64,000 bases of DNA from Bacteroidetes bacterium HGW-Bacteroidetes-4 (GTDB taxonomy: Bacteria > Bacteroidota > Bacteroidia > Bacteroidales > SZUA-534). Positions 10,490 through 63,855 of the stretch are shown here, in pieces; position 1 is the stretch's first letter; each line of letters starts with the position of its first letter. The notes beneath the pieces were generated by a model. The model ran no database searches. It saw only the letters and a program-made list of their open reading frames with translations, and was not told the origin of the DNA. The stretch covers positions 1 through 64,000 of the forward strand of contig PHDD01000018.1 of the NCBI GenBank assembly GCA_002840905.1, written 5' to 3'. The position numbers and the translations under genes are program-made.

Positions 10490-12541
10490 CTATGAATCGA
10501 AACGTTCAAATTCATTGTCCATATTTTTATCGTCGAATGAAATAATGGCGCCTTTGTTTTTTGAGGTTGTTTGCAACGTTTTTTTCACCACTTGCTTATT
10601 GGTAACCTTTGGATTTTGAGTTCTTACAACTTTTTTGATTTGTGAAGCTTCCTGCTTGTTCGAAACCTTGAAGAAACGAATCAACACTTTCAGTTGTTCA
10701 GCCTGACTGGCCAGCTCCTCTGACGAAGATGCCAACTCTTCGGAAGCAGCAGCATTTTGCTGAGTTATAGAACTTAATTGCTGAATGGCATGGTTTATTT
10801 GATCGGAACCTGCCGACTGTTCCTGGCTGGCCGCGGTAATTTCCTGAACCAGCATAGCGGTACGCTCTATTTCGGGAACCAACGCAGCCAATTGAATTCC
10901 GGCTTGTTTCGAAATAGAAACGCCTGATCCTGAAAGATCGTTAATTTCATCGGCTGCCACTTTACTCCGTTCGGCTAATTTGCGTACCTCGGCTGCCACA
11001 ACAGCAAAACCTTTTCCATGCTCTCCAGCACGGGCCGCTTCAACTGCGGCATTCAAAGCCAAAATATTGGTTTGGAATGCAATGTCGTTGATAATCTTTA
11101 TTTTTTCAGCTATTTCGTTCATCGAATTCACGGCAATAGTAGTCGATTGGTTTCCATCTTTTATGCTCTGCACCGCTTTGGTCGAAATCGATTCGGTTTG
11201 CTTCGAATTATCGGTATTTTGTAAAATTATGGACGACATTTGTTCCATGGATGCAGAAATTTCTTCGGCAGCCGATGCCTGGTTGGCTGATCCCTGGGCT
11301 AAAGATTGCGAGGTACTGCTCATTTCCATACTGGCCGCAGCAATATTGTCGGCACTTCCAATAATATCATTCACAATGTTCCGCAGCCGAATGGCCATAT
11401 CGGAAAGTGCTGCGCAAAGTTCACCAATTTCATCGCGGGTATTGCAACTTACCTCAGCCATTAAATTTCCCTGAGCCATTTCTTTGGCAAAGGCAACCCC
11501 TTTTTTTAAAGGGCCTACAATTCCCCGGGTTATTACAATGGCCAAAAGCGTAGCAACAATAATTGCTATGATGCTTAAAATGATTATCACTCTGCGGGTG
11601 GTTTCAGCTTTTTTTAACATAACTCCATCGGTCATAATCAAATCGTTTGAACGGATAATTATCAATTTAAATAAGCTGCCCACCTGGTTCAGGTGTTCTA
11701 AAGTTTCGGTATTATAAATTTGCTGGGCTTGTAGCATACCTTCAACCCGGTGTGAGTTCCAGGTAATCATTTCATCAATTATATTTAATACCTGATTTGC
11801 GTTTACGGTTGAATGAGATTCAAAATAGTCGCGGGCTCCGGTAAAGTTCCCGTTTTTTAAGTAACTTTCAATTACTTCGGCACTTTGGTGCAATTCGCGG
11901 TGAGGTTGGTCAATTTTATTGCATATTGCGCCAAACTCGGGCTCACTTTGTTTTAAGCGGTTAATTTCGTCGCTGTAAAACCAGATTCCAAAATTGCAAA
12001 GCTCTGGGTTCTTTTGTACTTTAAGTTCGTTTATTTTTCGCCCTTTTAAAATCTCGTCTTTAACTTTATTAATCCATAACAGATGATCCGATTTTACTTT
12101 TAACAAGAGTTCGGACAACTTTTGATCGGCAGGTTTATAAACCTCCGAAATTTTAATTGCCGATTGATGCAAGTGTTTATGTGGTTCTTCAATTTTTGCA
12201 AATTCAGCGGCTAATTCTGGAACCAAAGCCAAAGCCTGTGTTTTTCCTTCGCCATAGTACCATTTGCCAAAGGCACATAGTTCATAATTTGTTTGTACGG
12301 TTAACTGGTTTACGGCATCGTTGTTTACAAATTGATTTAGTTGAGCTGACCATTCGAGGTGAGCCACGTATTTGTCCTCGAGTTCAGTCCGAAGTTTGTT
12401 TCCGTTTATTACTTCTTTGGCGTTAAACACAATGACATTAATACCAAACACAGACCAAATAGCTACAATTGCCAGTATTAGGGTTACACAACCAAAAGCG
12501 AAGGTTAATTTGGTTCCAAGTTTAAAATTTTTCCAATTCAT
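10490..12541 (-). CDS. Methyl-accepting chemoreceptor with tandem extracytoplasmic CZB domains
   Basis: A 683-residue chemoreceptor. The first membrane segment is at about 13-38 and the second at about 316-340. Two complete CZB zinc-binding sites lie between them: His61/Cys89/His121/His125 and His153/Cys182/His214/His218, each with CxFGxWxY and an HxxxH helix. A HAMP linker and the cytoplasmic signalling domain follow (hairpin tip [20 protein letters not shown]). CZB domains of the TlpD kind sense zinc or hypochlorite and are usually cytoplasmic; here topology puts two outside the cytoplasm. No CheA, CheW or CheR gene is in the window. It starts 23 bp after the lone receiver gene, so the two are co-transcribed. 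Confidence 0.93.
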
Positions 12542-13752: not shown

Positions 13753-16404
13753 TTATTTGGGTGCTTTTATAAAAACGTGAATACCCTTGTTTAAGCCTGA
13801 ATTAATAATAATCTCACCATTCAGGGTTTTTATTCGGTTTTGCATGTTGATTAATCCATGTCCGTTTCTATTTTCTAAAGCTTCATTTACATTAAAACCT
13901 ACACCGTTATCGGTATAATCTACAAAAATATAATCGATGGATTCAGTAATTTTAATATTGATTTGTTTTGCCTTTCCATATTTTCTTGAATTATTTATCA
14001 ACTCAGTTGTTACGCGGTAAAGAGTTACTTCAATATTAGGTTCAAAACGCTGGGTTTCGCACAAACTCTCGATGTTGATTTGCGGAGTTGCCAACGCAGG
14101 TAACTGCTCAACAAAACGTTCCAGGGCTTTAATCAATCCAAAATCGTGAAGAATGTGGGGACTTAAATTATTCGAAATCTCGCGTAAGGTATTGAATGCT
14201 CTTTTGAGCGACATCAAGCCTTTATCTAAAACAAAAGTTCGATTTTCGTCGGATTCGGCCAACCATTGAAAATACATTTGTACGTTTGATAATATGGGGC
14301 CCAAACCATCGTGCAGTTCCTGAGCAAATTTGGTTTTTTGATCTTCTTCGGCTTTTATTATGGCTTTTAATAGCTGCTTTTCGGTAGCTTTCCGCTCGGT
14401 AATATCACGTACAGCCAAAGCTGCAATAGCACGATTCCTTATATGAATCATTTTATTTTCGAGTTCAACGCTAAGTTCTTCGCCATTTTTTCGCACCAAT
14501 AGCGCCTCGAAAGGTGCAGAATTGATGTTTCCCATTTTTGAACGCAGCATTTGATGATACTGCTCAGGAAAAAGAAGGGTTACCAAATCGAAGCCCAACA
14601 ATTCTTTTTTTCGGAAACCGCAGATACGCAGCATTGATTTATTGACGTCGGCAATTTGCATGTCCTGATGCAGAATAATCCCTTCAAAAGTCAAGTTTGA
14701 TAATAGTGAAAAACGTTTCTCGTTAAAAATGGCCTGTTCTTTCGATACAACTAAAGCTTCTTCAATCATTTTTTGTTCGGTAATATCATCGAGCGTGAGC
14801 AATACATATTTTTGCTTGTTTTGATGAATTAGTTTTGATGATACTAAGAATGTTTTTGCCTTTGGTTTTCCATTTTCAAATACTACCATATCAATTTCGC
14901 GTTTCAAAATATCAACGCCGGTTTTAAAAGTTTCCTTATATATTTTAGTTATCCTGCATTTTTTGCATTTGTCCGGAAGGGAACTACTTTTAACTTTATC
15001 GCGAAACGAGGTGCAATTAATGAGGTAGCCAATTTGATTGCTGTATTCAAAAGGCAATCCATTTTTTATAAGCTCTTTAGGTTTAAGATTCACTTTAATA
15101 ATGGTATCTTGTTCGTTTAACAATACAATTAAATACGGTGCACTTTCGAGTACTGTATTTAAAAGCTTTTCACTGGAAACAATTTTTTCTTCCATTATTT
15201 TCCGGTCAGTAATATCACGAGCTATGGATAATATATGTGTTTTATTATGAAGTGTTATGGGTTTTGCCGAAACCAGGGCATGTATGTAGCTCCCACTCTT
15301 TGTTAAAAAACTTGATTCGAAATTACTTACCGAGCCGTTTTTTTGAAAAAGTTCAAAAAATTGCTTGCGCTCCTGGTTGTTTTTCCAAAGCTTTAAATCG
15401 TAAACTGTTTTACCATAAATATCTTTTGTGCTATATTGGGTAAGCAGGGTAAATCCATCGTTTACCTCTATAAATTCTCCGCTGTAGCTGGTAATTAAAA
15501 TGGAATCGGGGCTGGTACGAAACGCGGTACGATATTTTAGTTCACTTTCAACCAACTTATTTTCGGCCTTTTTCCGGTCTGAAATGTCGCGAAACATTCC
15601 CATAATATGTGGTTCAACCTTAATGCTTACTAAAGATGCATTTATCTCAACCGGAATATGTTTTCCCGATTTCGACAGTAAAAAGTTTTCGGCCGATTTT
15701 ACATCGATACCTTGAATAATTTTTTGTGATCTGCCTTTAAATAATCGAACGGCCAGTTTTTGATAAGCCAACGGATGAATCTCAAAATGGTTTAATCCAA
15801 TTATTTGATCAACAGAAGTCTCCATAAGCTCTGCTGCTTTTTCATTGGCATCAACTATTCGTCCTGTTTCAATATTTGCCACAAAAATCGCATCGGTCGA
15901 TTTGTTAAAAAACTGACGAAACTGAGCTTCGCTTTCGTATAAAGCGTGTGTTGTTTTTAATAATTCATTATAGTTTTTTTTCAGTTCTGCATTTTTTTCT
16001 TCAAGTTTTGTAATTAAAAACTGGTTTTGAACTCTTAAATTATGAATACTGACAGCTTGTTGAATTGTCTGTTGTAAATCGTTTTTGTTCCAGGGCTTGG
16101 TAACAAACTGATATACCAAACCGGAATTAATAGCTTCAATAACCAACTCCATATCGGCATAGCCGGTAACAATCATAAAAATAAGGTCGGGAAATACCGG
16201 ACGAATACGCTTAAAATATTCAAGGCCTGTTTCGTCATGCATTTTCTGATCGGAAAGAATTACCTTAATGGTATTTTCTTTCAATATCACATCGGCTTGT
16301 TGCGTTGAAAGGGCTGTATATACTTCAAACATATTGCCAAAAAGTGCTTTAAACCCTTGCAGGTTAAAGAACTCATCGTCGATATAAAGAATCTTATCAT
16401 TCAT
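13753..16404 (-). CDS. Receiver-PAS4-HisKA_3 hybrid sensor kinase
   Basis: An 883-residue soluble histidine kinase. It has an N-terminal receiver (1-120, acceptor Asp52 in ILSDQKM, Lys in TKPW) and four PAS domains (about 160-680). A NarX-type dimerisation domain carries His698 in FAQELHDGLGP, and an HATPase has NNSRKYGKA, DNGVGF and GHGLINM. The third PAS carries Cys464, Cys480 and Cys483 (C-x15-C-x2-C), a Cys pattern that could bind metal or react to redox state. No membrane segment is seen. Its start overlaps the end of the heme-motif kinase gene by 8 bp, so the receiver may take phosphate from that kinase, and the output likely goes to the NarL-type regulator 11 bp downstream. Confidence 0.93.
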   Translation of the reverse strand: MNDKILYIDDEFFNLQGFKALFGNMFEVYTALSTQQADVILKENTIKVILSDQKMHDETGLEYFKRIRPVFPDLIFMIVTGYADMELVIEAINSGLVYQFVTKPWNKNDLQQTIQQAVSIHNLRVQNQFLITKLEEKNAELKKNYNELLKTTHALYESEAQFRQFFNKSTDAIFVANIETGRIVDANEKAAELMETSVDQIIGLNHFEIHPLAYQKLAVRLFKGRSQKIIQGIDVKSAENFLLSKSGKHIPVEINASLVSIKVEPHIMGMFRDISDRKKAENKLVESELKYRTAFRTSPDSILITSYSGEFIEVNDGFTLLTQYSTKDIYGKTVYDLKLWKNNQERKQFFELFQKNGSVSNFESSFLTKSGSYIHALVSAKPITLHNKTHILSIARDITDRKIMEEKIVSSEKLLNTVLESAPYLIVLLNEQDTIIKVNLKPKELIKNGLPFEYSNQIGYLINCTSFRDKVKSSSLPDKCKKCRITKIYKETFKTGVDILKREIDMVVFENGKPKAKTFLVSSKLIHQNKQKYVLLTLDDITEQKMIEEALVVSKEQAIFNEKRFSLLSNLTFEGIILHQDMQIADVNKSMLRICGFRKKELLGFDLVTLLFPEQYHQMLRSKMGNINSAPFEALLVRKNGEELSVELENKMIHIRNRAIAALAVRDITERKATEKQLLKAIIKAEEDQKTKFAQELHDGLGPILSNVQMYFQWLAESDENRTFVLDKGLMSLKRAFNTLREISNNLSPHILHDFGLIKALERFVEQLPALATPQINIESLCETQRFEPNIEVTLYRVTTELINNSRKYGKAKQINIKITESIDYIFVDYTDNGVGFNVNEALENRNGHGLINMQNRIKTLNGEIIINSGLNKGIHVFIKAPK

Positions 16405-19240
16405 TATGCTGTTTGTTTACCGGCAATTCAACAATAAAGCAGGTTCCTTTATTTGGCTGACTTTCAAATATAATTTCTCCCTTATGATCTTTAATAATAT
16501 TGTACGAAATGGAAAGTCCCAAACCGGTTCCTTTTCCTGCTTCTTTGGTTGTAAAGAAGGGGTCAAATATCTGATTCCTTATTTTTTCAGGAATACCTGT
16601 TCCGGTATCGTGTACCGTTAATTGTACTTTTTCACCTTTGCTTTGTGTACTTATAGTAATGGTTCCCTGATTGGGGATGGACTGTATAGCATTGATTAAC
16701 AAGTTCATAACAACCTGACTAATTTGTCCGGGAAAACCACTTATCAAAGGAATATCGCCGTATTGTTTTTGAATTTCGATACGGTTTTTATATTGGTTAT
16801 AAAGAATTAACAAAGTATTATCGATTAAAGCATGCAAATCGAATTGCTGTAACGTGGTTTCGTCGGAACGCGAAAAAGAACGCAACCCATTTACAATAGA
16901 AACGGTTCGGCTAACTCCCATTTCCATTCCCTCAATCAATGTGTTTAGGGTATGACGCATATCATCGGCTGAGGCTTTGGTTAATTTGGTTTCCTTATTT
17001 TGTGAAATCATTTTTTGTTGGCTGATGCAATCGTCGATGCAATCGTTAATTTGTTCGATGTATATTTTTATTCCATCGATTCCACACGAAATAAAATTAA
17101 TGGGGTTGTTAATTTCGTGGGCAATTCCGGCAATAAGCACACCCAACGAAGCCATTTTTTCAGATTGGATGAGTTGTGCTTGCGTTTTCCTGAGTCGTTC
17201 TAAAGTTAGTTCAAGTTCTTGTTTCTGACTGGCCAGCTTCTCGTTAATAACCATCAACTCTTCGTTAGCCGAATTTAGTTCCTCGTTCGACTGCATAAGT
17301 TCATTGGTTCGCTCGTGTACCAGATGTTCCAGCTTTTGTTGGTAATTGTTTAACTCCATCTGGGCGAGTTTTGTTTTTGTAATATCCAGATGGGTTCCAA
17401 ACATTCGTTTCACTTTGTTTTGTTCATCGACCAAGGCTTCGGCCCGGTTATGAATCCAAACATAATGTCCTTCTTTATGTCTGAGACGAAATTCGGTTAT
17501 AAACTGTCCCTGGGGATGCTTCAGGTATTTTTCAATTAAAGCCACAGCTTGCCATTTATCGTCGGGATGCAACAATTCCTTCCAGGTTTCGAATTTACCT
17601 TCGAGCTCGTGGGGTTGATAACCCAATTGCGATTTCCATAAATCAGAATAAAACACCTCATCGGAATCGGTAAACCAATCCCAAATTCCCAGGTTCGATG
17701 CTGCAATAGCCAATTGATAGCGTTCCTCACTGGCTTTTAGTGCTTGCTGTGTTTTTATTTGTTCGGTAATTTCGAAAAACACCACCACAAAATGGTTCGT
17801 CTGGGGCGAATAAACTTTGGTTTGATAATACCTATCGAAAGCTTCCACATAATTGGTGTATTCAGTGGGAACACCAGTAAGTGCTACCTGACCAAATTTT
17901 TCAATCCATTCCTGTTCCAGATTGGGAATAATCTCAAGTACCCGTTTGCCAATAATTTTTTCCTTCTTCAGTCCGGTTAATTCTTCATACTTATTATTAA
18001 TATCAATAAAAACGTAATCAATGGGTTTGTTATTTGAATCGGTAATTATTTTATGATAGGCAAATGCTGAGCTCATATTTTCGAAAAGTGACCTGAATTC
18101 GTTTTCGTTTTGAATTAGTTGCTCTTCGGTTTTCATTTGCAAAGTAATATCCTGAATAAACCCAATAATAAATGGTGCATCAATGGGAACTTTATTAATA
18201 ATAAGATGCAAAGATTTTACTTCTCCTTGTAAATTCCTTATGCGGTAAATCCGGTTGTATGCTAAACCATTTTGCAAAGCCAATGAAAGTTCACGTTTAA
18301 AGGTTTTATAATCCTGCTCATCGACGGTACTCACATACGATTCCAGTGTACCTGTAAAATCTGTTGGATGAATGCCAACCAGTTCAAATAAATCGTTACT
18401 AAATTCAAATGTTTTGCTCTTACGATGGTAATGCCAATAGCTAATTTTTCCCATCCGCTGAACCTCAATCAATTTTTCTTCATTTGCAATTAGCCTGGCT
18501 TCGATTTTTTTATTTTCTACAAACTCACGCTGATAACTAAGGTACCCAAAAATTGTAATAATAACCACTAAAAAAAATAAACCCAGATGCATTAAAGCAT
18601 AGCTTTTACTTTTTTTTGAGGCCAACTCGGAATAATTTTTTAAGGGAACCTTAACACTAAGAGCCCCGGCCAAAGAACCCTGGCTAATCGTTTCGCCCTG
18701 ATGGCATTTTAAACAATCGCTATCGTAATAAACAGGATTTAATACCCGAATAAAACCTTCATCACCAGCTTTATCAATTTCATTAATTAATTCCGGATTG
18801 TTTTTTAATTTCTCAAGCGCAGTTTGTTCCCATTCATCGGGCATGGTTTTGCGGTAGTCGCCACTCAAACTTATTAAATGGCCCGGCGTTCCATATTGCT
18901 CCTGCCACAATGCATGAATTTGTCGCATAACGTAGGCCGGATTCATTAAGGTAAGTATTACTCCCGAATCGGTAACAATATCGCGTTCAGGAATATTCTT
19001 TAAGTTTGGATTGGGCTTTGTATGGTCAGTTACCGGAACATAAACGCCTCCGTGAACGGATACCCATTTTCGGAAAACCATGTCTTTATTAAAACTCGAA
19101 ATGGCTTCATTTTTTGCCAGTTGATAAGCTACCCGGTATTCATTGTTAATATTCCAGATTAGCGAAAAGGCAAATAATACCGTAATAAGCAAAGCGATGG
19201 TTGCTGTTAAGAATTTATAATTTGTGAATTTAATTCTCAT
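16397..19240 (-). CDS. Membrane histidine kinase with periplasmic c-heme (DUF3365) domain
   Basis: A 947-residue kinase. One membrane segment is near 10-32 and a second near 214-238. Between them is a DUF3365/Tll0287-type sensor domain with a c-type heme motif, Cys176-x2-Cys179-His180 (DCLKCHQG). Three PAS domains follow (about 260-620), then a coiled coil (QSNEELNSANEELMVINEKL). The HisKA domain carries His708 in AGIAHEINNP, and the HATPase has NLLINAIQS, DTGTGIP and GTGLGLSI. A heme at this site would let it sense redox state, oxygen or NO; that is inference. It is the first gene of the block and overlaps the next kinase by 8 bp, indicating translational coupling. I found no clear promoter upstream. 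Confidence 0.93.
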   Translation of the reverse strand: MRIKFTNYKFLTATIALLITVLFAFSLIWNINNEYRVAYQLAKNEAISSFNKDMVFRKWVSVHGGVYVPVTDHTKPNPNLKNIPERDIVTDSGVILTLMNPAYVMRQIHALWQEQYGTPGHLISLSGDYRKTMPDEWEQTALEKLKNNPELINEIDKAGDEGFIRVLNPVYYDSDCLKCHQGETISQGSLAGALSVKVPLKNYSELASKKSKSYALMHLGLFFLVVIITIFGYLSYQREFVENKKIEARLIANEEKLIEVQRMGKISYWHYHRKSKTFEFSNDLFELVGIHPTDFTGTLESYVSTVDEQDYKTFKRELSLALQNGLAYNRIYRIRNLQGEVKSLHLIINKVPIDAPFIIGFIQDITLQMKTEEQLIQNENEFRSLFENMSSAFAYHKIITDSNNKPIDYVFIDINNKYEELTGLKKEKIIGKRVLEIIPNLEQEWIEKFGQVALTGVPTEYTNYVEAFDRYYQTKVYSPQTNHFVVVFFEITEQIKTQQALKASEERYQLAIAASNLGIWDWFTDSDEVFYSDLWKSQLGYQPHELEGKFETWKELLHPDDKWQAVALIEKYLKHPQGQFITEFRLRHKEGHYVWIHNRAEALVDEQNKVKRMFGTHLDITKTKLAQMELNNYQQKLEHLVHERTNELMQSNEELNSANEELMVINEKLASQKQELELTLERLRKTQAQLIQSEKMASLGVLIAGIAHEINNPINFISCGIDGIKIYIEQINDCIDDCISQQKMISQNKETKLTKASADDMRHTLNTLIEGMEMGVSRTVSIVNGLRSFSRSDETTLQQFDLHALIDNTLLILYNQYKNRIEIQKQYGDIPLISGFPGQISQVVMNLLINAIQSIPNQGTITISTQSKGEKVQLTVHDTGTGIPEKIRNQIFDPFFTTKEAGKGTGLGLSISYNIIKDHKGEIIFESQPNKGTCFIVELPVNKQHNE

Positions 19241-50497: not shown

Positions 50498-50526
50498 GCC
50501 TTCCAAACAAACGGATGCAAATTGAT

Positions 50527-51621
50527 ATGAAAAATCAGAAAAAATTCCTGGTGCTTATGCCTCTACTGCTGGTTTCTGCACTATTGTTAATTAGTTGGGG
50601 AGGAACCGGACATTACCACATTGGCTCTAATGCAGCCCTGTCGTTTAACCAGGAAATGCAACAATTTAACGATTGGATGGACTACATTGCCAATCACAGT
50701 TCCGATGCCGATTACCGAAAATCGGACGATCCCAACGAAGGCGAACGTCATTACATCGATATCGACAATTATCCTGAGTTTTTAACTGATGGAGCAATTT
50801 TACAGTCGTTAAACGAAGTAATTGCTTTTCACGATCGCAAATTTGTGTACGATAACGGGGTGTTACCCTGGGTTACACTTTATACCTACGATTCTCTGGT
50901 ATCGTGTATGCAACGTGCCGATTGGGAAAAAGCCAAATATTTTGCAGCCGATTTATCGCACTATGTGGCCGATGGGCATATGCCGCTTCATCTGACAAAA
51001 AACTACAACGGACAATACACCGGAAATACCGGCATCCATTCCCGTTTTGAATCGACTATGATAAATGCACACATTGGCCAAATCAGCTTTTCGGGAAAAC
51101 CAATAGCACCCATTAGTAATGTAAGTGATTATGTTTTTGCTTACATCTATACTAATTATACCTTTTTAGAGAGAATTCTGGAAGCCGACGATTATGCCAA
51201 AACTTTTTCAACCGACTATAATTCGTTGGCTTATAAAGATGCACTTTGGAGTAAATCGGAAACATTGGCGGCTGACTTACTGAATAATGCCGCACATGCT
51301 TTGGCTGAGTTAATGTATAACGCATGGATTGATGCCAACAAGTCATCAATAAATTCAGAAGAAAAAGAATTGCCGGTTATTATAGCTCCCAATCCAACCC
51401 GGGGAACTACCACTGTGCGTTTTGAATTGTCAAATCCAATGCAGGTTAGCGTTCAGGTTTATGGCATCGATGGAAAACACCTTACCACACTTGCCAACAG
51501 TTTCTTACCCGCTGAAAGCCATTCTATTTACTGGAACACGCAAGGATTATCATCAGGAATTTATCTGATTAGTTTTGAAACTCCCCAATCAAAAACCATT
51601 AAAAAGGTACTGGTAAACTAA
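50527..51621 (+). CDS. Secreted zinc-dependent phospholipase C/S1-P1 nuclease-like protein, T9SS-sorted
   Basis: A 364-residue exported protein. I start at the ATG at 50527, which directly precedes the signal peptide (FLVLMPLLLVSALLLISWG); 50515 adds four residues. The helical catalytic part (about 25-275) has the features of the zinc-PLC/S1-P1 fold: Trp-Gly at the mature N-terminus with a nearby His (WGGTGHYHIG), HYIDID, DLSHYVADGHMPLH and GIHSRFE. These give enough His/Asp for a three-zinc site. A T9SS type A sorting domain (PNPTRGTTTVRF to KKVLVN) ends the protein. Whether it cuts phospholipid or nucleic acid cannot be told from sequence. Confidence 0.82.
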   Translation: MKNQKKFLVLMPLLLVSALLLISWGGTGHYHIGSNAALSFNQEMQQFNDWMDYIANHSSDADYRKSDDPNEGERHYIDIDNYPEFLTDGAILQSLNEVIAFHDRKFVYDNGVLPWVTLYTYDSLVSCMQRADWEKAKYFAADLSHYVADGHMPLHLTKNYNGQYTGNTGIHSRFESTMINAHIGQISFSGKPIAPISNVSDYVFAYIYTNYTFLERILEADDYAKTFSTDYNSLAYKDALWSKSETLAADLLNNAAHALAELMYNAWIDANKSSINSEEKELPVIIAPNPTRGTTTVRFELSNPMQVSVQVYGIDGKHLTTLANSFLPAESHSIYWNTQGLSSGIYLISFETPQSKTIKKVLVN

Positions 51622-59215: not shown

Positions 59216-59589
59216 TTGTCCTGAACGTACCTTTAAGATTACTTAAAGAGTTTCAAACCTCTATCCGCCAGTAACCTGTCTTCAACTTAACACTTAATAA
59301 TCAGCTAAAAAACCCCAAGGAGCTATATTTTATGCAGCCTTGCCACTTTACCCATGAATAAGCGTTGCAAATAGTCGTTTGAGGAACAAGCACACCTGGC
59401 CTGTATCACACTTAAGAATAAACAATTACTAAGTAATGATCCTTTAGCCTAAAGTTAGGAGGCTTATTTTTTCCGTTCACCACGTTCCAGGCAAATTATG
59501 GTCTCACCTATTTAATAAAATAGTAATCTGAAATTCATGTTCAATTGATTTAAAGTTTACAAATTGCCTTCAAATTAACATTAAAAAAT
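59216..59589. other. Intergenic stretch before the PHP-GT4 gene
   Basis: 374 bp between the ABC-F gene and the PHP-GT4 fusion. The only hairpin is a weak one at about 59456-59480 (AGCCT...AGGCT followed by a T-rich tail), too short to call with confidence. I see no RNA gene, no good frame and no TAnnTTTG box near 59590. Confidence 0.45.
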
Positions 59590-62244
59590 ATGCAAGCTAG
59601 TAATCAGAAAGATTGGTCATTTCAACAGGAATTAAAAAAAGAGCTGGAACAGTTTTTATGGAACGAACAAGAACGTTTCCCTGAACATGAAACCTTAAAA
59701 ATTGATTTACATTGCCATGATCACAACAGCGATGTCCCTGATGAGTTGCTGGGACGAATACTGAATGTGCCCGAAACATGGTTACCTACCGAGAAGCTGC
59801 TCAAAACGTTAAAGAGAAGCGGTACTCATGTAGTAACCATAACCAATCATAACAATGCCCGTTCCTGCTTCGAGCTTAAAGACAAAGGCTTTGATGTACT
59901 GGTTGGTACTGAATTTAGCTGCATGGTTCCCTATTTCAATATCGGAATTCATGTGTTGACTTACGGGTTCACTCCCGAGCAAGAATATACCCTGAACAAA
60001 CTTCGTAAGAATTTGTACCAGTTTTTACAGTTTACTCGCGAAAACAACATTCCTACTATTTGGGCGCATCCTTTATATAATTATAGCATACAGGGAATGC
60101 CTCCCATGGATTTCTTTCATAAAATGGCTGTGGTTTTTGAGAGGTTCGAGGTCATAAACGGACAACGCGATACATGGCAAAACATGCTGGTAAAAATCTG
60201 GATCGATAGTTTAACACCGCAATTGTTAGACGATTATGCAAAAAAATTTCAACTCGACCCACGGCTCTATACCAGCAATCCGTATAAAAAATCATGGTCG
60301 GGAGGTTCTGATAGTCATATGGGAATATTTACCGGACAAACCGGAACATTGCTTCATGTACCTGATTTAAAGAACCGTCTGCTTGTTTCATCCGCTTCTG
60401 AACTAGCCTTAGAAGCTATCCAAAATGGTGAAATGGCTCCTTATGGATCTCATCAGAATTTTGAAAAACTTACTGTCGCTTTTTTGGATTATGTTTGCCA
60501 GATAACCATGTACAAGCAGGATCCGGGATTACTTCGGATATTACTTCACAAAGGAACCAGCCGCGATAAACTGATAGCTATACTTGCATCGAATGCTTTT
60601 TCGGAGTTACAAAACCATAAAGTTACCATGCGGTTCATTGAGCTTTTTCATAAAAGTTTCATGGGAAAAGCACCCAAAAATTACCAGAAAATGATGGTGC
60701 CCAAAGCCTACAAACCAATTTTTAAAGAAGCAACAAAAATTGCCAATGCCCGTGAACTGCCTCCTAAATTAATGGTAAAAGAACTTTCAAAATCCATCAG
60801 TACAATTAGTGATGAACTGAACAAGGTTCTTTACAAACGATTGACAAAAAAGATTGAAAAGCTAAGCAAAAACAGCTCACTAAAAAAAATGGATGTGAAC
60901 CAAATTATCGAAAAATTGGAATTACCTAGTGATATAAGGGTGTTAATGGGGCAAAACTCAAAAAATGGACGAATTTCAACCTTCAGCATTTCCGAGTTTC
61001 TTGATGGATTATCGTTCCCTTTTCTAACCTCATCCTTAATTTTGGGAGCAAACTTTATAAGTGCCAAGGTATTATATAATACCCGTCCTTTGCTCGAAAC
61101 ATTTTCGAATGAACTTGGGAAATTTAAACACCCCAAACGTATGCTTTGGCTTACCGACACTTACGATGATAAAAACGGCGTTTCGCATGTATTGCAGGAA
61201 ATGCATAAAGAAATAAAACGTCAGAACCTGCCCATCGACATTTTAGTATGCAGCAACCATATAAAGCCCGACGACCATTTAATAGTGATAAAACCTCTGG
61301 CTGAATTTACCTTGCCTTTTTATGAACAACAACCGATACGTATTCCAAATTTCAATGAAATACATCACTTGTTTCTCAAAAATGAATACGACCGTGTGAT
61401 GTGTTCAACCGAAGGAATTATGGGCGCCGTTTCGCTTTACTTAAAACAAGCCTATAATGTACCGGCCTCATTTTACATTCATACCGATTGGGTAATGTTT
61501 GCCCGGAAAGTGATACAGCTTGATCAACATAACCTGAATCGTGTACGAAGGTTGTTACGCGCCTATTACGGAGCATTCGATCAGGTTTTTGTGCTCAATT
61601 CCGATCAGCAAAAATGGTTAACCGGAAAAGAAATGGGTTTCTCGTCCGATAAAGTAAAACTTACCGCACATTGGGCCGATTCCATTTTTAAACCAGGCCC
61701 TTCGTCAAAGTATGCAGCATTCGGATTAAGTGAAACCGATAAAGTAATTCTCTTTGCTGGAAGAATCAGTCTGGAAAAAGGAATAATGGAGATTCCCGAA
61801 ATTATTCAGAACCTGAAAGACAAACACCCCGATGTAAAAATGGTATTTGCAGGAGTTGGTCCTGCACAGGAAGAAGTCCAAAAGCTGATGCCAGATTCGG
61901 TTTTTCTGGGTTGGATTACTACCAATGAACTTCCTTATTACTATACTGCTGCCGATTTACTTATATTACCTTCAAAATTCGACACCTTTAGTTTAGTTGT
62001 ATTGGAGGCATTAAGCTGCGGTTTGCCCGTAATTGCCTACAACTCGAAAGGTCCTAAAGAAATTATTGAGCACCGGATTTCAGGTTATTTGGCATCGAGT
62101 AAAAATGAGATGGTAACCTTAATGGATGAATATTTTAGTGATGAAAAAACTCCTTTAGCATTTAAAGAAGCTGCTCTAAAGCGTGCAGCCAAATACAGCA
62201 AGAATGAAATAATGGAACAATTCATTCAGGATGTTGCTTTTTAA
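59590..62244 (+). CDS. PHP phosphoesterase-like domain fused to GT4 glycosyltransferase
   Basis: An 884-residue two-enzyme protein. Residues about 35-330 are a PHP domain with the metal ligands in place: DLHCHDHNSD, TITNHNN, GTEFS, WAHPLYN and GGSDSHMGI. A helical Lys-rich linker (about 330-500) follows. Residues about 510-884 are a GT-B glycosyltransferase of family GT4: LWLTDTYDDKNGVSHV, YIHTDWVMF, VFVLNSDQQKWL, LFAGRISLEKGI, and the donor-site motif FDTFSLVVLEALSCGLPVIA. PHP domains hydrolyse phosphate esters, so one protein might remove a phosphate and add a sugar, or the reverse. The start of the GH13 gene is 3 bp downstream. The product is unknown. Confidence 0.9.
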   Translation: MQASNQKDWSFQQELKKELEQFLWNEQERFPEHETLKIDLHCHDHNSDVPDELLGRILNVPETWLPTEKLLKTLKRSGTHVVTITNHNNARSCFELKDKGFDVLVGTEFSCMVPYFNIGIHVLTYGFTPEQEYTLNKLRKNLYQFLQFTRENNIPTIWAHPLYNYSIQGMPPMDFFHKMAVVFERFEVINGQRDTWQNMLVKIWIDSLTPQLLDDYAKKFQLDPRLYTSNPYKKSWSGGSDSHMGIFTGQTGTLLHVPDLKNRLLVSSASELALEAIQNGEMAPYGSHQNFEKLTVAFLDYVCQITMYKQDPGLLRILLHKGTSRDKLIAILASNAFSELQNHKVTMRFIELFHKSFMGKAPKNYQKMMVPKAYKPIFKEATKIANARELPPKLMVKELSKSISTISDELNKVLYKRLTKKIEKLSKNSSLKKMDVNQIIEKLELPSDIRVLMGQNSKNGRISTFSISEFLDGLSFPFLTSSLILGANFISAKVLYNTRPLLETFSNELGKFKHPKRMLWLTDTYDDKNGVSHVLQEMHKEIKRQNLPIDILVCSNHIKPDDHLIVIKPLAEFTLPFYEQQPIRIPNFNEIHHLFLKNEYDRVMCSTEGIMGAVSLYLKQAYNVPASFYIHTDWVMFARKVIQLDQHNLNRVRRLLRAYYGAFDQVFVLNSDQQKWLTGKEMGFSSDKVKLTAHWADSIFKPGPSSKYAAFGLSETDKVILFAGRISLEKGIMEIPEIIQNLKDKHPDVKMVFAGVGPAQEEVQKLMPDSVFLGWITTNELPYYYTAADLLILPSKFDTFSLVVLEALSCGLPVIAYNSKGPKEIIEHRISGYLASSKNEMVTLMDEYFSDEKTPLAFKEAALKRAAKYSKNEIMEQFIQDVAF

Positions 62245-62247
62245 GTA

Positions 62248-63855
62248 ATGGATAAAAAAGCAATCAATGGATTTGGTGGAAACATGGCACAGTGTATCAT
62301 ATTTATCTCCGGAGTTTTTATGACAGCAATCAAAATGGAGTAGGCGACATACAAGGTATAATAAGTAAACTTCCCTATTTACATAACCTGGGTATTGATG
62401 CGCTTTGGTTATCGCCCGTTTACCAATCGCCACATGCCGATTTTGGGTACGATGTAAGCGATTATTGCCAAATAGATTCCCTTTTTGGAAGCATGGATGA
62501 TTTTGATGAACTGGTAAAGCAAACCCATCAATTAGGAATGTATATCATTATGGATATGGTGCTCAATCACACCTCAGTTGAACATCTCTGGTTTATGGAG
62601 TCGCGCTCGTCGTTGGAAAACCCTAAACGCGATTGGTATATTTGGAAAGCGTCCAACGACGGAAGTCGTCCCAATAACTGGAAAAATAGGTTTGGCGGTT
62701 CAGGCTGGGAATTTGATATAATCACCCGACAATACTATTATCACTCGTTTTTAAAAGAACAACCCGATTTGAATTGGCGCAACAAGGAGGTAAAGAAAGC
62801 AATGTTCAAAATAATTAAATTCTGGCTCAACAAAGGCGTGGATGGTTTTCGGTTCGATGTGATTAATTTTATTATAAAGGATGGGAAATTCCGAAACGAT
62901 CCAACCCTTATAAGTCAATTACTTGGAACATCGAAAGTGTTTACCCGAAACCGTCCCAAATCGTTAAAGATTCTTAGCTCACTTCGCAAACTTCTTGACC
63001 AGTATACCGATAAAGTAAGTATTGGGGAAGTTTACATATTACCTCCCGGAGATCCCCAATTAGCAGCTTCCTATTTAGGCAACGGTACCAATTCGCTACA
63101 CCTGGCTTTCGACTTTTCGTTGGCTTTTAAACGCTGGAGTGCAAAAAAATATGCCCAAACCATTCATAACTGGATGCAAGCCATTCCTCCTAAAGGTTGG
63201 CCCTGTTCGGTGGTATCGAATCACGATTTGCATCGCAGTTACAACCGTCAATTCGTTCGCTTTTTTAAAGAACCCAAAGCTCGTTTAGAAGCCATGCTGC
63301 TGCTAACCCTAAAAGGAACTCCTTTTATTTATTATGGACAAGAAATTGGAATGGTAAATGGTCACATACCCCGAAAACACATTAAAGATCCCCTGGGCAA
63401 AAAGTTTTGGCCTTTTTATACCGGTCGCGATAAAGCCCGCACTCCTATGCAATGGGATAGCAGCAAATTTGCCGGTTTCTCGCTAACCGAACCCTGGTTA
63501 CCAGTAAATGCCGATTATCGTCATAAAAAATGTAAGTACCCAATGGGTACAACCCCATTCTTTACTTGTACTTTATAAAAATTTGATGCAATTAAGGCAA
63601 ACCTATACAAGTATTTCCATGGGTGATTTTAGAATTATAAATACCCGAACAAATGGAATCTTAGCTTATGAGCGCATCCATGGAAAACAAAAAATACATA
63701 TTCTTTTGAATTTTAGCTCATTTACCAAAAAATTCGTTCAAATAGACTATTCCAAATGGGACATACTCCTTTCTACTCATCTAAACACAAAAAAAGCAGT
63801 GAATACGGTAATCTCCTCCCTAAGACCTTTCGAAGGGGTGGTTCTGAAATCATAA
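62248..63855 (+). pseudogene. GH13 alpha-glucosidase-like gene with two one-base frame breaks
   Basis: The open part (62292-63578) encodes a GH13 enzyme: FGYDVSDYC, VLNHTS, nucleophile region GFRFDVINF, acid/base in SIGEVY, VVSNHDLHRSY, and TPMQWDSS typical of oligo-1,6-glucosidase/alpha-glucosidase-like members. The conserved N-terminal residues (WIWWKHGTVYHIY) continue in frame back to 62256 without an ATG. The ATG at 62248 would reach them if the A6 run at 62254-62259 had one more A. At the other end the frame leaves the family at the A6 run 63525-63530. With one A less it continues as KNVSTQWVQPHSLL to a normal end at 63855 (LRPFEGVVLKS). All catalytic residues are intact, so this may be sequencing error, recent decay, or slippage. 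Confidence 0.75.

Follow-up and report, generated by a model that had tools for sequence, protein, structure and literature searches.

A PHP–GT4 fusion as a candidate phosphate-starvation enzyme of membrane lipid remodelling in Bacteroidales and Cloacimonadota

The 64,000-nucleotide stretch of Bacteroidetes bacterium HGW-Bacteroidetes-4 DNA analysed here (the window), which belongs to an assembly of 4.32 Mb in 42 contigs, encodes near its end a protein that joins a predicted PHP metal-phosphoesterase domain to a GT4 glycosyltransferase, followed by a GH13 gene of alpha-glucosidase type. We consider this PHP–GT4 fusion as a possible enzyme of membrane lipid remodelling under phosphate starvation. 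The features of the locus are as follows.

59501–59539, + strand: weak site resembling a Pho box, 89 bp ahead of the fusion start
59590–62244, + strand: PHP–GT4 fusion, one uninterrupted open reading frame of 884 amino acids
59677–60372, + strand: PHP metal-phosphoesterase domain, assigned from invariant presumed ligands and structural likeness to PHP domains
61009–61065, + strand: hydrophobic stretch ahead of GT4, residues 474–492, mean Kyte-Doolittle value 1.41
61132–62241, + strand: GT4 glycosyltransferase domain (Pfam PF13439, PF00534)
62254–62259, + strand: run of A, read from the sequence, at which the frame of ATG 62248 departs from the GH13 frame
62256–63578, + strand: first frame of the GH13 alpha-glucosidase-type enzyme, catalytic part (PF00128, 4.2e-126)
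63508–63855, + strand: GH13 C-terminal part in a different frame (Malt_amylase_C and DUF3459 in Pfam)
63524–63529, + strand: run of A, read from the sequence, at the second loss of the GH13 frame

PHP domains are marked by metal-binding His, Glu and Asp residues in the order HxH, H, E, H, H and DxH. The presumed ligands in the window protein are H41, H43, H87, E108, H121, H160, D241 and H243, and all eight positions are invariant both in 21 of 21 aligned fusions and in 21 of 21 proteins of the window type, two alignments that have three rows in common. The Pfam PHP model did not match the window protein even at E < 1; PF02811 was matched at E ≤ 0.1 by the PHP regions of 15 of 21 relatives, at best with 2.5e-4. 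A family profile searched against the PDB returned three matches at E ≤ 10, every one a PHP phosphoesterase and all weak (0.047, 0.061 and 2). Structure prediction for the whole fusion gave a predicted local distance difference test score (pLDDT) of 46.6, and residues 27–297 yielded a moderate model (pLDDT 67.5; predicted template-modelling score, pTM, 0.70). The four best Foldseek matches of this model were PHP proteins (best E 2.1e-4, template-modelling score 0.29–0.34), one of them at E ≤ 0.001, and the top 26 rows from VIA-align were likewise PHP proteins (Z from 9.2 to 5.3, with the next row at 4.4); among these, the DNA polymerases, PsfC, EndoQ and 2yb1 are known as PHP proteins, the rest being recognised by title. 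Because the relatives' Pfam matches, the PDB profile matches, the structure model and the eight invariant ligands agree, the prediction that the N-terminal half is a PHP domain with the PHP fold is supported.

The C-terminal half is scored above the Pfam cut-offs by PF00534 (4.3e-31) and PF13439 (2.2e-9). GT4 enzymes carry both halves of the GT-B fold and an E/D-x7-E catalytic motif; residues R725, K730, D798 and E806 are invariant in the 21 fusions and in the 21 window-type proteins. Ahead of this domain, residues 474–492 form the second most hydrophobic stretch of the window protein by mean Kyte-Doolittle value. A stretch at the corresponding place ranks in the top three for 20 of the 21 fusions and contains an invariant proline (P477 in the fusion alignment), and it is a possible membrane contact.

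The search for this architecture across genomes that the initial annotation had suggested found the fusion with a PHP profile in 23 of 393 genomes of the window's order and in 4 of 4 genomes of the order containing the family f34, and with a PHP-plus-linker profile in 18 of 124 Cloacimonadota genomes and in 5 of 395 evenly drawn Bacteroidota genomes (the window genome and four of f34). The nearest relative found, locus L023 from a genome of the same genus, is 84% identical over the fusion, and the Cloacimonadota fusion L068 matches by tblastn at 25.5% across 819 aligned positions (E 2.4e-61). Against L023 the ratio of nonsynonymous to synonymous substitution rates (dN/dS) is 0.036, at a dS of 2.45 that is near saturation. 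This ratio, and the presence in 23 of 393 and 18 of 124 genomes, make the joining of the two domains more than chance, and as judged from sequence the PHP–GT4 fusion is real. That the two domains might be split and unlinked in relatives had been raised as a possible refutation; among matches at E ≤ 1e-10 there were no separate PHP and GT4 genes of the fusion's type. The short frames that were inspected are cut or broken: L067 ends with its contig, L061 contains a run of N, L069 has a frame break and L065 an in-frame stop. These four loci were left out of the 21-row alignments and the tree. In L065 (6990–7330) an otherwise continuous gene is interrupted by the stop where the GT4 NGV motif has its conserved Gly, which recoding, an error or decay might explain. 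In the tree, the window, L023, L024 and the Cloacimonadota loci L025 and L026 form a window-type clade, with the f34 clade and the Cloacimonadota main clade apart from it on long branches, which, as the tool warned, may attract each other. Plasmid and viral origins were considered and dropped, as no plasmid record covered 80% of the fusion or matched its PHP part, and no viral contig matched.

The order-wide set comprises 23 loci, namely the window, L023, L024 and 20 others, excluding a 150-residue fragment at a contig end (G718) and a locus on the same contig as L024 (L122); L121 and L139 are further omitted from the window-type alignment. Among the 22 loci with downstream DNA (all except L121), 18 carry a GH13 gene immediately downstream on the same strand, in keeping with the earlier view of the trio as a unit; L131, L134, L135 and L138 do not. 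Where a start could be placed, the spacing of the two genes varies from overlaps up to a gap of 136 bp. The sole two Cloacimonadota genomes with a window-type fusion, G436 and G437, yielded no GH13 gene at E ≤ 1e-30, so GH13 is not essential to the core. Nor was one found at this threshold in G045, G050 and G055, and G040 has a single partial match on a different contig. From this distribution, present in 18 of 22 order loci and not found in those five genomes, the GH13 enzyme is, as gene content indicates, an accessory of the Bacteroidales branch.

The initial annotation had described PHP, GT4 and GH13 as encoded within 3 bp of each other. The uninterrupted PHP–GT4 frame and the presence of GH13 are borne out, but the ATG at 62248, 3 bp past the fusion stop, opens a different frame from the GH13 catalytic one, and the window GH13 is itself split by two breaks, each at a run of six A, a split that the initial annotation had overlooked. 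In 15 relatives the gene runs unbroken through 534–620 codons, and the C-terminal part in the window matches the intact GH13 of L023 at 50.9% over 114 amino acids (tblastn). The first frame has a dN of 0.13, with dS saturated and not computable, and the second a dN/dS of 0.14 at a dS of 2.5. These low values make the breaks look recent, or like sequencing errors, and an old pseudogene was accordingly not adopted as an explanation. No further GH13 of the same type was found in the window genome at E ≤ 1e-30.

GH13 catalytic domains use an Asp nucleophile, a Glu acid/base and a third Asp, and the corresponding motifs GFRFD, GEVY and SNHD are found here. The catalytic domain and motifs are shared with the closest PDB chains, 6aav (an alpha-glucosyltransferase) and 3wy1 (an alpha-glucosidase). 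Region II differs, however: it reads GFR-x-DV in 13 of the 16 genes printed, compared to DT in 3wy1 and DA in 6aav. Since DV is typical of oligo-1,6-glucosidases and a mark of alpha-1,6 specificity, such specificity may be expected of the enzyme. Judged by eye, the starts of most printed GH13 genes show no clear signal peptide, so that the enzyme may act in the cytosol; the frame in L120, by contrast, starts with a signal-like stretch.

Genes for phosphate acquisition recur beside the fusion. In the Cloacimonadota main clade, pst genes lie near it in 6 of 16 loci (L060, L063, L068, L069, L074 and L075), and in L068 PstS, PstC, PstA, PstB and PhoU stand beside it, all above the NCBIfam model cut-offs. 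A pst operon also occurs in 5 of the 23 order loci (L127, L131, L132, L134 and L140), with the closest pst or phoU gene 1.0–3.4 kb from the fusion; PstS scores above its model cut-off in four of these and was detected by tblastn alone in L134. In L132 the fusion, GH13, one unassigned gene and pst follow in succession on the same strand. Other loci carry an alkaline phosphatase and a PhoB-like regulator that falls under the PhoB cut-offs (L120), or a polyphosphate kinase, a Ppx/GppA protein and a purple acid phosphatase (L128).

The promoters point in the same direction. Repeats of the E. coli-type Pho box (CTGTCAT) were not enriched at the promoters; while weak CTGTCAT sites were being viewed, a TTAACA-type motif was noticed, and it was first counted on those same promoters. 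TTAACA repeats resemble the Bacillus PhoP box. As guards, we used a matrix with the locus's own sequence left out, controls from other genes, and Bacteroidales loci added later; the training and test genes nevertheless share ancestry, and the matrix is biased towards AT-rich DNA. Cloacimonadota fusion promoters contain four TTAACA-like hexamers spaced by 11 bp, 80–91 bp ahead of the start, followed by a GTATAAT-like –10 element. With the own locus left out, all 16 promoters of the main clade were significant (p ≤ 0.002 each, 500 shuffles). At 17 of 24 consensus matches, 11 of the 16 main-clade fusions were recovered, and the others reaching this level among 136 Cloacimonadota upstream regions (fusions included) were four copies of the gene that precedes pstS and one region that is the same DNA read on the opposite strand. 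Ranked by the matrix, the top 20 of 143 Cloacimonadota upstream regions were the 16 fusions and the four copies of that gene.

In the window's order, at least 17/24 was attained by 8 of 23 fusion promoters versus 20 of 221 other upstream regions (Fisher p 0.0017). Six of those 20 lie ahead of genes to which models assign a phosphate function: two of pstS and one each of purple acid phosphatase, polyphosphate kinase, alkaline phosphatase and a regulator resembling PhoB. Three precede the gene before pstS, and eleven belong to other genes, among them those of a TonB-dependent receptor, a protein with a SpoIIE domain, an acyltransferase and a free GT4. The L023 fusion promoter reaches 18/24 (0 of 1000 shuffles). 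In the window, the site ahead of the fusion scores 4.9 bits (p about 0.004) with the Cloacimonadota-trained matrix, the top of 37 upstream regions; the genome's own pstS has a best site of 16/24 (p 0.14), none at 17/24, and scores 1.2 bits (p 0.04). Predicted Pho control of the PHP–GT4 family is well supported, and we infer it for the fusion of the window strain itself.

Several neighbours were noted alongside. The gene before pstS (L132 4722–6122, L131 6260–7540, L140 11705–13108 and L068 3838–4854) has a box upstream in 4 of 4 copies, and the three that were scanned (L068, L131 and L132) lack a Pfam assignment; a "phosphate porin" label, given by eye, is not relied on, as there was no Pfam match. 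The interval that separates the fusion from pst in L140 encodes a protein of the endonuclease/exonuclease/phosphatase family (10681–11655); its gene is divergent from the fusion and has a box of 18/24. PHP-like proteins recognised by eye, and in L120 a free-standing GT4, occur at L120 3438–4568 and 7020–8303 and at L135 5973–7880; the PHP-like proteins immediately precede the fusion, on its strand, with boxes of 21/24 and 17/24, respectively, that of L120 matches DUF5001 alone in Pfam, and the free-standing GT4 has a box of 17/24. A PlsC-type acyltransferase gene near the L023 fusion (15866–16603) has a Pho-box-like site upstream (16631–16669, 18/24), hinting at wider lipid control in the genus. 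In four Cloacimonadota loci a small methyltransferase-like protein adjoins the fusion, at L060 226–723, L066 8211–8744, L068 3200–3691 and L075 7926–8411 (Methyltransf_11 at 1.6e-6 in L068, the others being its homologues) and possibly modifies a lipid headgroup. Two similar proteins, lactonase-type beta-propellers by eye, flank the fusion–GH13 pair in L024 (5900–7003 and 12329–13507). Elsewhere in the window, positions 50515–51621 encode a secreted S1/P1-nuclease-like protein (a weak match) with a Por secretion tail.

The affinities of the GT4 domain bear on its acceptor. One member was scanned from each of the other clades, L033 from f34 and L068 from Cloacimonadota, and in both the first NCBIfam match was N-acetylglucosamine (GlcNAc)-phosphatidylglycerol synthase (1.4e-41 and 1.3e-28); L068 also matched the alpha-monoglucosyldiacylglycerol synthase model (4.2e-23), all of these far under the cut-offs. 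The first of these models raises another order of lipid glycosylation, with GT4 acting on a phospholipid headgroup, as in GlcNAc-phosphatidylglycerol synthase, and PHP trimming or proofreading a phosphodiester or a nucleotide-sugar by-product. As a phosphorus-containing product would seem ill-suited to control by phosphate starvation, we consider this order distinctly unlikely.

Replacement of phospholipid by glycolipid best explains why a phosphoesterase and a glycosyltransferase that are fused should be under Pho control, and on balance, by a slight preference, we regard the fusion as a Pho-regulon enzyme of membrane lipid remodelling whose PHP domain supplies diacylglycerol to GT4. The PHP domain would remove the phosphate-containing part of a lipid, either a phospholipid or phosphatidate, to leave diacylglycerol and recoverable phosphate, and GT4 would transfer a sugar from a nucleotide sugar to diacylglycerol to form a phosphorus-free glycolipid, with the hydrophobic stretch ahead of GT4 holding the enzyme at the membrane. 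The GH13 enzyme encoded next to the fusion in most Bacteroidales carriers, probably co-transcribed with it and of alpha-glucosidase or transglucosylase type, would trim, recycle or rebuild an alpha-linked headgroup, and may thus edit the sugar. We infer the lipid substrate, the order of the reactions, the identity of the sugar, and the role and place of GH13.

A number of observations weigh against this interpretation. The excess of boxes at fusion promoters in the window's order does not extend to stricter thresholds, with 2 of 23 fusion promoters versus 9 of 221 others at ≥19/24 and 0 of 23 versus 6 of 221 at ≥20/24, and 17/24 is reached by just 2 of the 8 pst upstream regions tested. By consensus, the site in the window itself is weak (14/24, p about 0.6), and among 178 upstream regions from outside the Cloacimonadota main clade, the SpoIIE-domain gene of L023 (6.3 bits) outscores the window fusion. 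No box was found at L025 or L026, the Cloacimonadota loci with the window-type fusion, and promoters of related genes are not independent. In the stretches examined, some of them short, 18 of the 23 order loci have no pst operon, and neither does L025. In NCBIfam the window GT4 scores best against TIGR04157 and BshA, and GlcNAc-phosphatidylglycerol synthase comes third. Against the PDB, the GT4 profile matches 6kih (Tll1590) and 3c4q best, with BshA also listed; we take 6kih to be a sucrose-phosphate synthase and 3c4q to be MshA. These matches leave room for a soluble phosphorylated acceptor.

GT4 would in that case glycosylate an acceptor such as glycerol-3-phosphate or a sugar phosphate, PHP would dephosphorylate the product and GH13 would degrade the resulting glucoside, as in the synthase–phosphatase–hydrolase sets of compatible solutes. 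A phosphatase fused to a synthase of the 6kih kind is a natural pair, and the GH13 is alpha-glucosidase-like. However, pst neighbours and Pho-box promoters are unexpected for osmolytes, the hydrophobic linker stretch also counts against this reading, and a lipid glycosyltransferase model came first for both members scanned from the other clades, so that a soluble glucoside seems unlikely to us. The neighbours and promoters, by pointing to a phosphate-starvation regulon, favour membrane glycolipids over the sugar-phosphate or compatible-solute pathway proposed in the initial annotation, which is now less supported. PHP-type tyrosine phosphatases occur in capsule loci, and many weaker NCBIfam matches of the window GT4 are polysaccharide enzymes, which would fit an envelope polysaccharide glycosyltransferase with a regulatory PHP domain; against this, reading the printed neighbour lists by eye revealed no polysaccharide gene cluster, the metal site is fully conserved and the context is one of phosphate, and we regard it as very improbable.

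Returning to lipid remodelling, a more specific proposal, which we advance tentatively and would not yet rely on, is that a single polypeptide carries out headgroup exchange in Bacteroidota and Cloacimonadota: a PHP-type phospholipase C or phosphatidate phosphatase would pass diacylglycerol directly to GT4, with GH13 as a headgroup-editing partner in most Bacteroidales carriers, as an independent solution to the problem served by PlcP and Agt. A glucosidase tied to such lipid remodelling would, to our knowledge, be new. The fusion shares the PHP fold and presumed metal ligands with PsfC, RNase AM and BAD_1165, at 11–13% identity to its PHP part in structural alignments, and we know of no fusion of these three to a glycosyltransferase. 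The GT4 similarity to GlcNAc-phosphatidylglycerol synthase (NF053787) and alpha-monoglucosyldiacylglycerol synthase (NF049988) falls far under the curated cut-offs, and these models, of ~360–400 positions, have no space for a PHP domain.

In the known Pho-linked pair, PlcP phospholipase C is encoded with an adjacent glycosyltransferase (PMC4796936), and for Flavobacterium johnsoniae a PlcP and a glycosyltransferase of the PhoBR operon are listed under lipid remodelling (PMC8115612). E. coli is able to form diacylglycerol by itself (PMC4796936). The present system resembles PlcP and Agt in encoding a phosphoesterase and a glycosyltransferase together with a link to phosphate limitation (PMC4796936). 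It differs in uniting both activities in one protein, in using PHP as the phosphoesterase (no Metallophos model, as expected of a PlcP-type calcineurin-like phosphoesterase, matched in the five fusions scanned) and in the addition of a GH13 gene in most Bacteroidales carriers. In Desulfovibrio alaskensis G20, the group 1 glycosyltransferase Dde_3613 (agt) is reported to be required for MGDG and GADG under phosphate limitation (PMC5193443). By this description Dde_3613 may be a counterpart of the fusion, and the word PHP does not occur in the main text of that article (PMC5193443); if Dde_3613 were a fusion of the PHP–GT4 kind, the core function would already have been assigned. The trio had been called undescribed, and a literature search for a PHP domain with a glycosyltransferase agrees in having no PHP–GT4 fusion among the matches listed; the parts available of PMC3333781, PMC12419801 and PMC5989533 contain nothing on such a fusion.

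If the proposed function is correct, the fusion would serve as a marker gene by which phosphorus-free membranes could be traced in Bacteroidales and Cloacimonadota and which searches for PlcP would miss, and would represent a new use for PHP domains. The passing of lipid between a phosphoesterase and a glycosyltransferase would, in addition, become testable.

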